Source: Oligoflexales bacterium
GTDB taxonomy: Bacteria > Bdellovibrionota_B > Oligoflexia > Oligoflexales > RGVZ01
Direction of reading: 5' to 3'
DNA length: 64,000 bases
Assembly: GCA_947494335.1 (NCBI GenBank)
Contig: CANLUT010000001.1
Span: 1,047,649 to 1,111,648, forward strand
Under the pieces are notes generated by a model. That model saw only the letters and a program-made list of their open reading frames with translations. It searched no databases and had not been told where the DNA came from. Made by a program: the position numbers and the translations under genes. Below are positions 20,376 through 25,417 of this stretch, one piece after another (position 1 is the first letter of the stretch; each line of letters starts with the position of its first letter).

Positions 20376-20858
20376 TTAAGATTGACATAAGCGACTTGCG
20401 AGTAGGCGCACAAATCCCTGGTCAATGCACTGGTCAAACATCTGCGGGTTTACGCGCTGGCTGTGACAGTAGTAGTTGTACTCCCAGACGTGACCATAGG
20501 TGTAACGATTGGCGCCAGCAACCTTGCCTTGCGGCGTATAAATACCAATCCACTCCATATTGTATTCGATCCAATGGTTGTAACCGCCCTGCGGATTTTT
20601 TGCGGTAAAAATACCAGGGCGATCAATGAGGTGCGCGACAACGCGCCCATCGCGGCCTAAAACAAGATAATCAGCCGGGGTCTGCTGGTTAGGTGGGGCC
20701 ACAACGAAGGAGACGCCACAGCTGACGGCGTTCGCTCTAACGGCATCGATGACCATTCTAGCGTATGACGGAATATTGTCTGCAGCCTGGGCCAGGCTAC
20801 TAAAAATTGCAGCGTTTAATAGCAAGAATGCTAAGGATAATTTCAATCGAGATTTCAT
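20376..20858 (-). CDS. Secreted protein of unknown function
   Basis: The frame is open further upstream, but the ATG at 20858 is the start: GGAG lies 6 nt upstream and the product begins with a signal peptide (MKSRLKLSLAFLLLN...AQAAD). The mature 135 residues contain four Cys, many aromatic residues (YNHWIEYNMEWIGIY, YGHVWEYNYYCHS) and a DYLVLGRDGRVVAHL segment, so a small disulfide-bonded periplasmic or secreted domain is likely. I recognise no family. It is alone, about 150 bp from dnaE on the same strand; no terminator is seen between them. Confidence 0.65.
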   Translation of the reverse strand: MKSRLKLSLAFLLLNAAIFSSLAQAADNIPSYARMVIDAVRANAVSCGVSFVVAPPNQQTPADYLVLGRDGRVVAHLIDRPGIFTAKNPQGGYNHWIEYNMEWIGIYTPQGKVAGANRYTYGHVWEYNYYCHSQRVNPQMFDQCIDQGFVRLLASRLCQS

Positions 20859-21198
20859 TGAGTTCTCCGCGTTAGGGGGCAGGTTTACCTGCCTAGGGTT
20901 TAGCACAAAACAAAGCCCTCTGTAAAAAGATCTGTGCAATCCCCGGTGGAGCCATGGTGTGGCTACCTGGGATAGACTCAGGCGTCGGCAACGATCTAGG
21001 TCCATTTTCCATAAACACCAGTAATTATTGATAAAATATTAATCAATAAGAATATAATTATAATTAATACAATTATTAATATTTCTTACTAGATTTTAAT
21101 AAAGAGCTTGCTATATATTAATACTTGGCCAAAGGGCCTATGTATTTATGTCCTGTAGTTGTGGTTGTTCATTAAGCTGACTTGTTGCGGAGATTCCC
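20859..21198. other. Intergenic AT-rich divergent promoter region
   Basis: 340 bp between divergent genes for exported proteins. From about 21020 to 21120 the DNA is extremely AT-rich. It includes a dyad TATTGAT/ATCAATA at 21026-21048 with a 9-nt AT loop, a possible operator. No ORF with a ribosome site and no RNA gene were seen. The plus-strand gene has GGAG 7 nt before its ATG. Confidence 0.4.
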
Positions 21199-22911
21199 AT
21201 GGTGACTTTTTCCTCTCACCGATTCAATCAACCTACGTTGCTGTTGCTACTGTTTTCGTCAGCGCTCGCTTTGACGAGTTGCGACTCCATGTCTGGGCAC
21301 ACAACATTACCTCTGGATCCCAGTGCTCCTCGGACCAAAGTAGAGCCGCGCCCGGATGTAGTTCCAAATAAGCCTGAGGATGATCAAGACGCATCTGTTG
21401 ACGATAATCAGGTCGCATTGGAGTCTTTGGCTTTGTCTGATGAAACACCGCGTCAGCTGGTGTGCAAGCGCAAGCAGGGGTCTTCCCTCGTTGGTGATAT
21501 GAGTGTTTTGACGCCGAAAGGGTCAAAATCAATTGCGAGCTTTACGTTGAATGGAAACGTTGGCGCGTGTGAAATGGCTCGTCGCGCCGCCCGTAATGGG
21601 ATCGTTTGTATCGAAAGTGCTAGCTCCTATCAGGCCATAAAGCTTAGTGATCGCAGGTCAGTGAAGGCCTTTGGTGGCGATTTAAAAAGTTGTTTAGCTT
21701 ACACTCAAAAGTTGCCTGCCGAGATCGCTGGAAATGATGACTTCCATTTTATTGATGCAAAAGAGCGCCAAGCTTACTTAAAAAATCTACCAAAGATTGC
21801 AGATCAGCAGATTAATGCTGCCATGCATTCTAATGAGTCCATATGGTACGACGAAGACTCCATGGTTTTTGTATACCAGGATTCTTTTGGCAATCCGACC
21901 GGTCCAGAAGGCTTGCGGGCAAACCGCGTGGCCTACGATGTCGGTTCTACGGCGTCTGTCCCAGACATTCGTGCTCTGACAGAGTACTTTGAGTTGCAAA
22001 CATTCAAATATCCATTCTCGATTACAGCGGGTCGTATGGATCGCGGTAACTCAGAGGCTGTGTACTTTTGGCAACCTCCAAAGGATGAGTCCGGTAACCG
22101 ATTGCCGGTCGTTTGGTGGAAATCCGGATCCCATTGGAACTGGGTATTCCCTGTGGGGACTGTCATTGGTGAAGTTTTGCTTGTTCGTGATGAGAGCGCA
22201 CCTGCATCGGAATGGTATGTCCACGAAATTCGTAGCCGGGTTCGTGAAATAGATGGCTGGCGCACGGATGTTTTTAGGCCATTTACTCGTGCCGTTGATT
22301 ACGCTGATGCCATTAAAAAAGCGCGCAAAGATTGGCAGTCTTCGGATCTAAAGCAGTTGGTAGCACATCTTGAAGATGGGTCAACGCTGATCCCTGGGAA
22401 GCTTGATAGTAAGTCTTACGAAAAGGCTGTGCCGAGTCTTCAAGGATTTTATGATTACTTGCCAGCAACAAAAGATACGGCCTTGATCAAAACACTATTA
22501 CGTAAAACTGTGTTCAAATCAGCTATGAATACTGAGTGGAAACGCTCAGGCGACAAGGTTACGTATGCGCCGGCCACATCGGCTTCCTTTCAGATTGTGC
22601 CAAAAAAACATATTGCGGGACTCTTCGAAAATAATGAGGCGTCATGTGCTCGCTGTCACGATCAGACAGGACGCCCACTTGGCCAGCTTGATAAGCGCGC
22701 CACTCTGTACGGCGAGATTTGGGGCGAGGATCATATATTTACCTGGCATCCATTTGAGCCTGTTGTCGACATGTATTCAGTTTCCGACGGTAGCCGCATC
22801 CCAAGCAAACGCTTAGTGAGGGCGGGTCTTCTTGTGCAGAAGAAGCCTGCGTCTGGAGATAGTATTTACCGTGAATTGCCGCGAGGCTATGTTCCGAACT
22901 TTAACCAATAA
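21199..22911 (+). CDS. Heme-motif (CxxCH) lipoprotein of unknown function
   Basis: 570 residues: signal peptide with lipobox LTSC, then an acidic linker. A Cys module C124-x12-C137-x27-C165 has exactly the same spacing as one in the next gene. A long middle region (about 200-470) has no recognised fold. Near the C-terminus CARCH (483-487) is a single covalent-heme motif, followed by HDQTGRPLG and, about 40 residues on, DMYSVSDG, whose Met could be the second axial ligand. It is best called a putative c-type cytochrome-like lipoprotein. GGAG lies 7 nt upstream of the ATG. The neighbour starts 43 bp downstream, so the two are probably cotranscribed. A bound heme is inferred only from the motif. 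Confidence 0.7.
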   Translation: MVTFSSHRFNQPTLLLLLFSSALALTSCDSMSGHTTLPLDPSAPRTKVEPRPDVVPNKPEDDQDASVDDNQVALESLALSDETPRQLVCKRKQGSSLVGDMSVLTPKGSKSIASFTLNGNVGACEMARRAARNGIVCIESASSYQAIKLSDRRSVKAFGGDLKSCLAYTQKLPAEIAGNDDFHFIDAKERQAYLKNLPKIADQQINAAMHSNESIWYDEDSMVFVYQDSFGNPTGPEGLRANRVAYDVGSTASVPDIRALTEYFELQTFKYPFSITAGRMDRGNSEAVYFWQPPKDESGNRLPVVWWKSGSHWNWVFPVGTVIGEVLLVRDESAPASEWYVHEIRSRVREIDGWRTDVFRPFTRAVDYADAIKKARKDWQSSDLKQLVAHLEDGSTLIPGKLDSKSYEKAVPSLQGFYDYLPATKDTALIKTLLRKTVFKSAMNTEWKRSGDKVTYAPATSASFQIVPKKHIAGLFENNEASCARCHDQTGRPLGQLDKRATLYGEIWGEDHIFTWHPFEPVVDMYSVSDGSRIPSKRLVRAGLLVQKKPASGDSIYRELPRGYVPNFNQ

Positions 22912-22954
22912 GTAAGTTGATCTTGAGTTGATGTTGTAACAATTGAGGTTGATC

Positions 22955-23494
22955 ATGAAACGTTTTCACATAGATATCGTCTTGTCTTTGATCGTGGCCG
23001 GAGGGGTCGTTTCGACGGCGTCCCTGGCCGAAAATTTGGAATCACATTTTGAATGCAAAGACTATGGTAACGGGACTTATAGGCCCTACTATCTTCAGGC
23101 CGTTACTAATGGAGCAAGCTACCGGGATTATAGTAAAGAACCAAAAGGGCAGCTGGGGCAACATCCCATGCAATCTCAAGAGGAGTGTTCGCGCGCTCTT
23201 GAAAATGCCAATCATCAGTACGGCGTAATTTGTAGTCGCACTGGTTTGAATGGTTGGAAACCGACTCTTTATACAGGAACGTTACCAGGTCGCGCTGATT
23301 TTGGTTACATGGGTGGTTCGTCGATCATGAAATTCGACGACTGTCTTAAGGCAACTGCTAATTCTTCCGCAGCCGGAATTTGTTATTGGGGTGGTTCGGC
23401 ATGGTATGTGGGACGCATCGATCGCTCTGAGGGCGTTTCAGGTCCATATAAATCTGTGGACGAATGCATCACGCACACCACCGGAGGGCGTTGA
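22955..23494 (+). CDS. Exported Cys-repeat protein of unknown function
   Basis: The ATG at 22955 (GAGG 6 nt upstream) is chosen over a TTG at 22943, giving 179 residues with a signal peptide (MKRFHIDIVLSLIVAGG...SLA). The mature part has six Cys arranged as a partly repeated module: C78-C93-C130 and C130-C143-C171, with 'A...GxxC' and 'S..(E/D)C' around them. The second copy's spacing (13 and 28) matches the module in the preceding lipoprotein exactly. It is rich in Gly and Tyr. I recognise no family. It shares an operon with the CxxCH lipoprotein and ends before a hairpin at 23535-23558. Confidence 0.7.
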   Translation: MKRFHIDIVLSLIVAGGVVSTASLAENLESHFECKDYGNGTYRPYYLQAVTNGASYRDYSKEPKGQLGQHPMQSQEECSRALENANHQYGVICSRTGLNGWKPTLYTGTLPGRADFGYMGGSSIMKFDDCLKATANSSAAGICYWGGSAWYVGRIDRSEGVSGPYKSVDECITHTTGGR

Positions 23495-23534
23495 GTTTAT
23501 GATGACGTCAACGCACTCACTAATTCAAATAGAA

Positions 23535-23558
23535 AAGGAGCCCTTTTCAGGGCTCCTT
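23535..23558. terminator. Hairpin terminator between convergent small genes
   Basis: A perfect 9-bp stem AAGGAGCCC/GGGCTCCTT with a 6-nt loop lies 40 bp after the exported Cys-repeat gene and about 20 bp beyond the stop of the minus-strand Cys-rich peptide gene. The A-run at 23533-23536 gives a U-run on the minus strand; the plus side is less U-rich. It probably works mainly for the minus-strand gene. Confidence 0.6.
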
Positions 23559-23579
23559 GTTGCCTTTAGTAAGCAACTA

Positions 23580-23732
23580 TCATCCATGATTGCCGTGATC
23601 ACACTCACAGCCGTCGTCGCAGTGGTCGCAACTATCACAGCAGTCGCAGTCACAACAGTTGCCAGCTATTAACGCTGGAGCCTGAGCGAACGAAAGACTT
23701 AACATTGCGGTCAAAAATAATTTCCTAATCAT
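23580..23732 (-). CDS. Small exported Cys/Asp-rich peptide
   Basis: A 50-codon gene with GGAG 6 nt upstream of its ATG. The product has a signal peptide (MIRKLFLTAMLSLSFAQAPA) followed by about 28 residues packed with nine Cys, seven Asp, one Glu and three His (for example CCDCDCCDSCDHCDDG). This composition resembles metal-binding peptides; disulfide-rich folding is also possible in an oxidising periplasm. No maturation enzyme such as an MNIO/DUF692 protein is nearby. Upstream lies a perfect 15-bp dyad (23757-23794), which suggests individual regulation. The low-complexity acidic/Cys tail has no family I recognise. Ribosome site, signal peptide and flanking hairpins make it unlikely to be a chance ORF. 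Confidence 0.75.
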   Translation of the reverse strand: MIRKLFLTAMLSLSFAQAPALIAGNCCDCDCCDSCDHCDDGCECDHGNHG

Positions 23733-23756
23733 GTGACTTCTCCTTGTTGGCATTTT

Positions 23757-23794
23757 AACGCCGGTTATACTTAAAGCTTAGTATAACCGGCGTT
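23757..23794 (-). promoter_or_regulatory. Perfect 15-bp dyad upstream of the Cys-rich peptide gene
   Basis: Two perfect 15-nt arms (AACGCCGGTTATACT and its complement) flank an 8-nt centre, ending 24 nt before the start codon of the peptide gene on the minus strand. One arm contains TATACT, a good -10 hexamer in the right orientation, so the dyad could be an operator over a promoter. As RNA it would form a long leader hairpin ahead of the ribosome site. It lacks a T-run, so it is a poor guaA terminator. Confidence 0.6.
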
Positions 23795-23839
23795 ACATTA
23801 AAATAGAGTGAGTTTTCCTACCGTATTCTCTCTACAGAA

Positions 23840-25417
23840 CTATTCCCATTCAATCGTCGCTGGCGGTTTGGTCGTAATATCAAAAACGACTCGGTTAATC
23901 CCCTGAACACGACGGACTATCATGTCAGAGACGCGGGTTAAGAAACTAAGCGGCAGGTCAGCAACGCCCGCGGTCATGCCGTCGCTGGATGTAACCGCTC
24001 GGAGTGCGATAGTCTGTTGGTAGGTTCGATTATCACCCATGACGCCAACGCTTTTTACCGGCAGTAAAACAGCAAAAGCTTGCCATGGAACGTGGTAGAG
24101 CCCATGTTCACGCAAAGCTGAAATGAATATATGGTCGGCTTCTTGAAGCATCGCAACGCGCTCGGGCGTGACGTCTCCGATGATTCGCACTGCAAGACCT
24201 GGCCCTGGGAAGGGGTGACGTTGAATCAACTCCTCCGGAAGCCCGAGTTCCAAGCCGATCGTGCGCACTTCATCCTTGAATAGCCAACGAAATGGCTCAA
24301 CGAGCTTAAGTGCCAGTCGATCTGGTAGGCCGCCCACGTTGTGATGGCTTTTGATGACTTTAGAGCCGGCGCCGTGCCCTGCTGACTCGATCACATCTGG
24401 ATACAGGGTCCCTTGCCCAAGATGGGTAAATTCGGGATGCTTTTTGGCGTAGCGTTCAAACTCCTCGATGAAAAGTCCACCGATGATTTTCCGTTTTTGC
24501 TCGGGCTCGGTGACTCCCTTCAGGCGTTCAAAAAAGAGCGCTGACGAGCGCAAAATTTCAAGGTGCCGAAGGCCGAGTACTTTCAGCCTTTCTGATACCC
24601 ATTCAACTTCGTGCTTGCGCAGAAGGCCTGTGTCACAGAAGACCGCTGTAACCTGATCAGGTCCCAATGCTTTTAGAAGTAACGCCGCTGTCACAGTTGA
24701 ATCGACCCCGCCGCTGCAAGCGACAAGTACATGCCCATCACCAACAACGTCGCGGATATGCTTACACAACGAATCCACTCTGGACTTTCCGTCCCACGAC
24801 AGAGCCAGATGACAGAGTTTAGTAGCAAATGTTTTTAAAAGCTCCAGCCCCTGCTCGGAGTGCGCAACTTCAGGATGGTACTGAAGGGCTGCAATGGGCT
24901 TTATTTTGTGTGTAATGGCAGCGACTACGTGATCGTCTGTTTCCCCTGAGATGTCAAATTCGTCTGGAATTTTGGCGATGTCATCGCCATGACTCATCCA
25001 TACAGTTTGCTTGACCGGTGTTGGTGGGAAAAGACAGGCCGCTGGGCCGCTGGATTTTTTTGCATGCATCACTGCATGACCATATTCACGTTTTGTCGCC
25101 GCGCGAACATGGCCTCCCGCTTGTTCGACAAGTAGTTGCATGCCGTAGCAGATGCCAAGAATAGGTACGTTAAGCGGTAAAACCCATTTTGGTAACGGGC
25201 GACTTCCGTCTTCGTAAACAGAGTCAGGCCCCCCTGAGAGTATGATGCCGTCAATCTGAAAGCCTGCAGGGGGCTGACTCTCCCTACCATCGATGACTTC
25301 GCTGTAGATGCCGATCTCTCGTAGGCGACGCACAATCAAGAGAGTGTATTGCGAGCCGTAGTCAAGAACCAGAATGCCATTATGTTGAGGGCGTGTGGTA
25401 TGAGTGACTGGCGACAT
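23840..25417 (-). CDS. guaA: GMP synthase (glutamine-hydrolysing)
   Basis: Converts XMP to GMP using glutamine and ATP. The 525-residue protein has the class I amidotransferase triad (Cys90 in LGICYGMQL, His181 and Glu183 in YHPE), the ATP pyrophosphatase P-loop SGGVDS (235-240) and the C-terminal dimerisation domain ending FDITTKPPATIEWE. It lies 25 bp downstream of guaB, the usual guaBA operon. Length and motifs are entirely ordinary. Confidence 0.98.
   Translation of the reverse strand: MSPVTHTTRPQHNGILVLDYGSQYTLLIVRRLREIGIYSEVIDGRESQPPAGFQIDGIILSGGPDSVYEDGSRPLPKWVLPLNVPILGICYGMQLLVEQAGGHVRAATKREYGHAVMHAKKSSGPAACLFPPTPVKQTVWMSHGDDIAKIPDEFDISGETDDHVVAAITHKIKPIAALQYHPEVAHSEQGLELLKTFATKLCHLALSWDGKSRVDSLCKHIRDVVGDGHVLVACSGGVDSTVTAALLLKALGPDQVTAVFCDTGLLRKHEVEWVSERLKVLGLRHLEILRSSALFFERLKGVTEPEQKRKIIGGLFIEEFERYAKKHPEFTHLGQGTLYPDVIESAGHGAGSKVIKSHHNVGGLPDRLALKLVEPFRWLFKDEVRTIGLELGLPEELIQRHPFPGPGLAVRIIGDVTPERVAMLQEADHIFISALREHGLYHVPWQAFAVLLPVKSVGVMGDNRTYQQTIALRAVTSSDGMTAGVADLPLSFLTRVSDMIVRRVQGINRVVFDITTKPPATIEWE

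Follow-up and report, generated by a model that had tools for sequence, protein, structure and literature searches.

In a 64-kb stretch of DNA from an Oligoflexales bacterium (the window), a 50-residue open reading frame (ORF) downstream of guaA appears to be a small gene, recently gained or new, for a Sec-exported, metallothionein-like chelator of a thiophilic metal. Composition points to this reading, to which we assign a probability of about 0.58. The features that bear on it are listed below.

23580..23732, minus strand: 50-aa peptide ORF, Sec-type signal peptide plus Cys/Asp/His-rich tail (translation)
23661..23732, minus strand: predicted signal peptide MIRKLFLTAMLSLSFAQAPALIAG (inspection of translation)
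23583..23660, minus strand: 26-residue tail NCCDCDCCDSCDHCDDGCECDHGNHG with 9 Cys, 3 His and 8 acidic residues
23740..23745, minus strand: Shine-Dalgarno (SD) sequence AAGGAG, 7 nt spacing to the peptide ATG
23840..25417, minus strand: guaA (GMP synthase), upstream, 107 nt ahead of the peptide ATG
23756-23771 / 23780-23795: perfect palindrome between guaA and the peptide, 16-bp arms and 8-nt centre
23535..23558, minus strand: terminator-like hairpin, 10 bp stem, 4-nt loop and T-rich tail TTCTATTTGA

The ORF and its proposed product

Translation of the minus strand from 23732 to 23580 yields the 50-residue sequence MIRKLFLTAMLSLSFAQAPALIAGNCCDCDCCDSCDHCDDGCECDHGNHG, beginning with an ATG at 23732 and ending with a TGA at 23580-23582. 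A plus-strand reading from 23580 runs into stops. The first-pass annotation had placed a 50-aa peptide with nine Cys and seven Asp in its last 28 residues at 23580-23732 without stating a strand; its coordinates are exact, its counts are right and the strand is minus. The ribosome site that it described is present as AAGGAG, 7 nt ahead of the ATG. An in-frame ATG further upstream would give a 57-aa product (MPTRRSH...) and has no SD sequence. The signal peptide that it had called is likewise borne out by inspection of the translation, which reveals a basic start and a hydrophobic run. R3 and K4 form the n-region, followed by L5-F15 (an 11-residue hydrophobic run) and then by a region of small residues. 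Candidate cleavage sites lie after A18, A20 or G24, their position being uncertain by inspection. There is no twin Arg, and the residue ahead of the first Cys, N25, does not fit a lipobox.

Residues 23-50 contain 9 Cys, 7 Asp, 1 Glu and 3 His. The Cys of NCCDCDCCDSCDHCDDGCECDHGNHG are spaced as two CC, three CxC and two CxxC, the C-terminus reads CDHGNHG, and the single Pro of the whole peptide falls within the signal region. CC/CxC/CxxC spacing with three His is the ligand pattern of metal-thiolate clusters. Like a metallothionein, the peptide is a small, Cys-dominated chain with 9 Cys in 26 residues arranged in CxC/CxxC clusters. Of the metal-binding composition claimed in the first-pass annotation, the richness in ligands is thus confirmed, while metal binding itself is what that composition would suggest.

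Under the favoured reading, the small gene, recently gained or newly arisen, would encode a Sec-exported peptide whose cleavage would leave a strongly acidic, Cys/His-rich chain of about 26-30 residues, either periplasmic or extracellular. With no fold of its own, the mature chain might wrap around Cu(I), Zn(II), Cd(II) or Ag(I), the metal being held by Cys thiolates with His and carboxylates assisting. The peptide could then act as a disposable metal sink or buffer, metallothionein-like but outside the cytoplasm. Expression, export, cleavage, metal binding and the choice of metal are all steps that we infer. A single-sequence structure model of the peptide gave a mean pLDDT of 53 and a pTM of 0.14 with no confident fold, which agrees with a chain that needs metal to fold but does not prove one. 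As a counterpoint, the Cys of the tail could instead form disulphides in an oxidising periplasm.

Chance expectation and genomic setting

The Cys content of the tail was compared with a null model of 1,433 simulated 64-kb sequences (third-order Markov, window's composition; 92 Mb in total), in which ORFs of 30-110 aa were scored for Cys number in their last 28 residues. Nine or more Cys were reached in 0 of 1,433 simulated sequences; at least eight occurred in 6 and at least seven in 37. None of the simulated ORFs reaching 8 Cys had a signal-peptide-like start. The genes of the window have a Cys content of 1.2%. No tandem repeat was found beneath the peptide ORF and synonymous codons are mixed (TGT 5 and TGC 4 for Cys; GAC 5 and GAT 2 for Asp), so the Cys/Asp composition does not stem from simple sequence. 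Codon usage lent the ORF no positive support as coding sequence; over only 50 codons, the log-odds of -5.4 bits (-3.4 bits for synonymous choice only) are uninformative.

On the minus strand the gene order is guaB, guaA and then the peptide ORF. The palindrome at 23756..23795 carries a HindIII site at its centre, occurs as a single copy genome-wide and is not a repeated element. It folds strongly (z about -6.5) and is not a classical terminator, since a T-run is absent on both sides; an operator or an RNA processing/stability hairpin is possible. The hairpin at 23535..23558 starts 21 nt beyond the peptide stop on the same strand. Its stem is also called on the plus strand, with a poorer tail there, and may therefore serve both directions. 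No promoter-like site was found for the peptide. The SD sequence, the signal peptide, the non-random Cys/Asp/His tail and this same-strand, terminator-like hairpin together make it probable that the ORF is a real gene.

The next two genes beyond the peptide sit on the plus strand, leaving none co-directional. The nearer, at 22943-23494 (+), encodes a 183-aa exported protein without a Pfam or NCBIfam match, whose homologues (56-57% identity) occur only in G004 and G035, the G035 copy having an in-frame stop. The other, at 21199-22911 (+), encodes a lipoprotein-like protein of 570 aa with a single CxxCH motif (CARCHDQTG); it has no Pfam or NCBIfam match, and homologues at 43-57% identity are found in five relatives. 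No metal-homeostasis gene was recognised adjoining the peptide, and the window showed no recognisable genetic tie to a metal system.

Conservation and motif searches

No homologue of the peptide was found among 57 other genomes of the phylum, nor in GTDB genome contigs, plasmids, phages or viral contigs, and there was no significant match in Pfam, NCBIfam or PDB. The first-pass annotation had named two observations that together would speak against it, no homologous peptide in related genomes and no transcript from this strand; the first of these is what the search returned. Weak matches in relatives (E 0.02-0.8) were rejected: the best eight are fragments of longer or broken frames that, read in frame, have neither a signal peptide nor a Cys tail, and their loci contain no exported ORF rich in Cys. 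The best PDB match, a zinc alcohol dehydrogenase loop (E 0.3), is not significant, and Rfam gave sub-threshold chance matches only.

The peptide locus differs in every relative. In the nearest (G002, GuaA 86% identical), the gene directly after guaA is the orthologue of the one at 20376-21005 in the window, so the 2.8-kb stretch that bears the peptide is missing there; in several other relatives dnaE follows guaA. The 183-aa and 570-aa neighbours have homologues in a small number of relatives, where they lie on separate contigs and the peptide is missing. Searched as a whole, the intergenic DNA matched nothing elsewhere.

Because similarity searching is weak for a biased sequence of 50 residues, a motif scan was added. 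The DNA pattern for CC[DE]C[DE]CC, scanned over all genome contigs, gave at least 119 stretches, 80 of which were read in frame. These were mostly chance frames and C-terminal tails of long actinobacterial proteins, with a few mini-ORFs; none of the 80 combined a signal peptide with a short tail in the manner of the peptide. Two Gemmatimonadota contigs, L108 and L151, carry stand-alone mini-ORFs of about 24 aa, MSKEMGACCDCDCCSDGCCGGDCC and MMDDTEPCCDCECCKDGCCGGDCC (both minus, at reverse-complement positions of about 1776 in L108 and about 993 in L151). A hairpin lies shortly past the stop in each, and L151 has a clear SD sequence. The two resemble the peptide in their CCDC[DE]CC core, in standing alone and in the hairpin past the stop, but they have no signal peptide and the likeness is limited to the motif used in finding them. 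They are possibly an unannotated family of cytosolic mini-metallothioneins. Since unrelated bacteria carry such CCDC[DE]CC mini-ORFs with hairpins, the motif recurs among small genes. L112 (Amycolatopsis) has a short end of similar kind, MTMRIDDCCDCDCCDTGCC, and Cys/Asp-rich tails such as CCDCDCCDCDCC close long actinobacterial proteins in L079, L100, L105, L110, L129, L130 and L153.

The function proposed for the peptide is drawn from its composition; the claim stands on one sequence and is limited by the lack of any homologue.

Known systems and rival explanations

SmtA binds four Zn through 9 Cys and 3 His, and the tail of the peptide has the same ligand count. Bacterial metallothioneins (SmtA/BmtA, PF02069; MymT) are, like the peptide, small and very Cys-rich with CxC-type spacing. 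Unlike it, they are cytosolic and have no signal peptide, whereas the peptide has a predicted Sec-type signal and an unusual alternation with Asp. PF02069 (Metallothio_Pro) found no match in the peptide, its tail or the whole genome, while the control, Synechococcus elongatus, did match; nor did the peptide match any PDB metallothionein. Among exported proteins, Csp1 has many Cys and stores copper, with a Tat signal and a four-helix bundle (PMC7558416). The peptide shares predicted export and Cys richness with Csp1 but has no Tat signal and only 50 aa, and its 26-30 residue tail has no predicted helix or fold comparable to the bundle.

The likeliest rival is an orphan ORF at the 3' side of guaA that yields no functional protein: it may be translated without being under selection, and the hairpins would simply end and stabilise the guaBA transcript. 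The lack of a homologue in any collection, a locus that differs in every relative and codon usage without a positive signal would all fit. We nevertheless consider it rather unlikely, as a 9-Cys ORF tail, joined here to an SD sequence and a signal peptide, was unseen in 92 Mb of simulated sequence. Hairpins after the ORF also recall CutF, a small Cys peptide that is exported by Sec and has mRNA hairpins behind it (PMC9973294). Such an arrangement would suit a leader peptide of the CutF/CruR/CzcI kind that senses metal, its nascent export being delayed by metal and expression of a downstream gene altered as a result. This is improbable here: no co-directional gene that could be the target follows directly, the next two being on the opposite strand, the hairpin is terminator-like, and the peptide has no Pro-rich C-terminus or stall motif and no DUF2946 match. 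Overlapping the peptide, a hydrophobic plus-strand ORF (23391-23672, or a later start, ending ...MIAVITLTAVVAVVATITAVAVTTVASY) stays open across the same stretch, with GGAGGG ahead of an ATG pair near 23499. That this is the true product is a remote prospect, given that the ORF crosses the hairpin, that no SD sequence precedes its internal ATG at 23586 and that in G004 the homologue of the 183-aa gene has nothing similar after it.

Other rivals accept an exported Cys-rich peptide and dispute its role. A signal peptide and many Cys would also suit a secreted disulphide-rich peptide, bacteriocin-like or predation-related, that binds no metal. Membrane-active disulphide peptides are, however, unlike tails with an odd number of Cys, CC/CxC spacing and strong negative charge; the tail has all of these, with adjacent CC, and lacks hydrophobic residues and, His apart, basic ones, which makes such a role very improbable. 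Bufferins are small Sec-exported Cys-rich peptides that sequester copper in the periplasm, and the bufferin/oxazolin class requires an MNIO enzyme (PMC12452194). The peptide shares with this class (Buf1 DUF2282, Buf2, EGKCG) a Sec signal peptide and a Cys-rich core, the bufferin design (PMC12452194), and could on that ground be a Sec-exported RiPP precursor with MNIO-modified Cys. Its Cys motifs differ, however, and MNIO (PF05114) is absent from the genome (97% complete), although control genomes do match. No modifying enzyme was recognised adjoining the peptide, which has no Pfam or NCBIfam match to Buf1 (DUF2282) or any other known precursor signature. The missing MNIO contradicts the RiPP reading, which is largely refuted and scarcely tenable.

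We return, then, to the exported chelator. To our knowledge, the bacterial metallothioneins described so far are cytosolic, and the small exported Cys peptides with a known role in copper buffering are modified by enzymes. The exact phrase 'periplasmic metallothionein' matched no paper, a result for that wording only that does not prove absence. Tentatively, and with the odds against it, the peptide might be an exported metallothionein confined to one species and perhaps born de novo, in which alternating Cys and Asp form a metal sink without the help of a modifying enzyme. If the favoured reading is true, an unmodified exported metallothionein-like peptide would represent a simpler solution to metal buffering, and, since no relative has it, it would offer a test case for the origin of short metal-binding genes.
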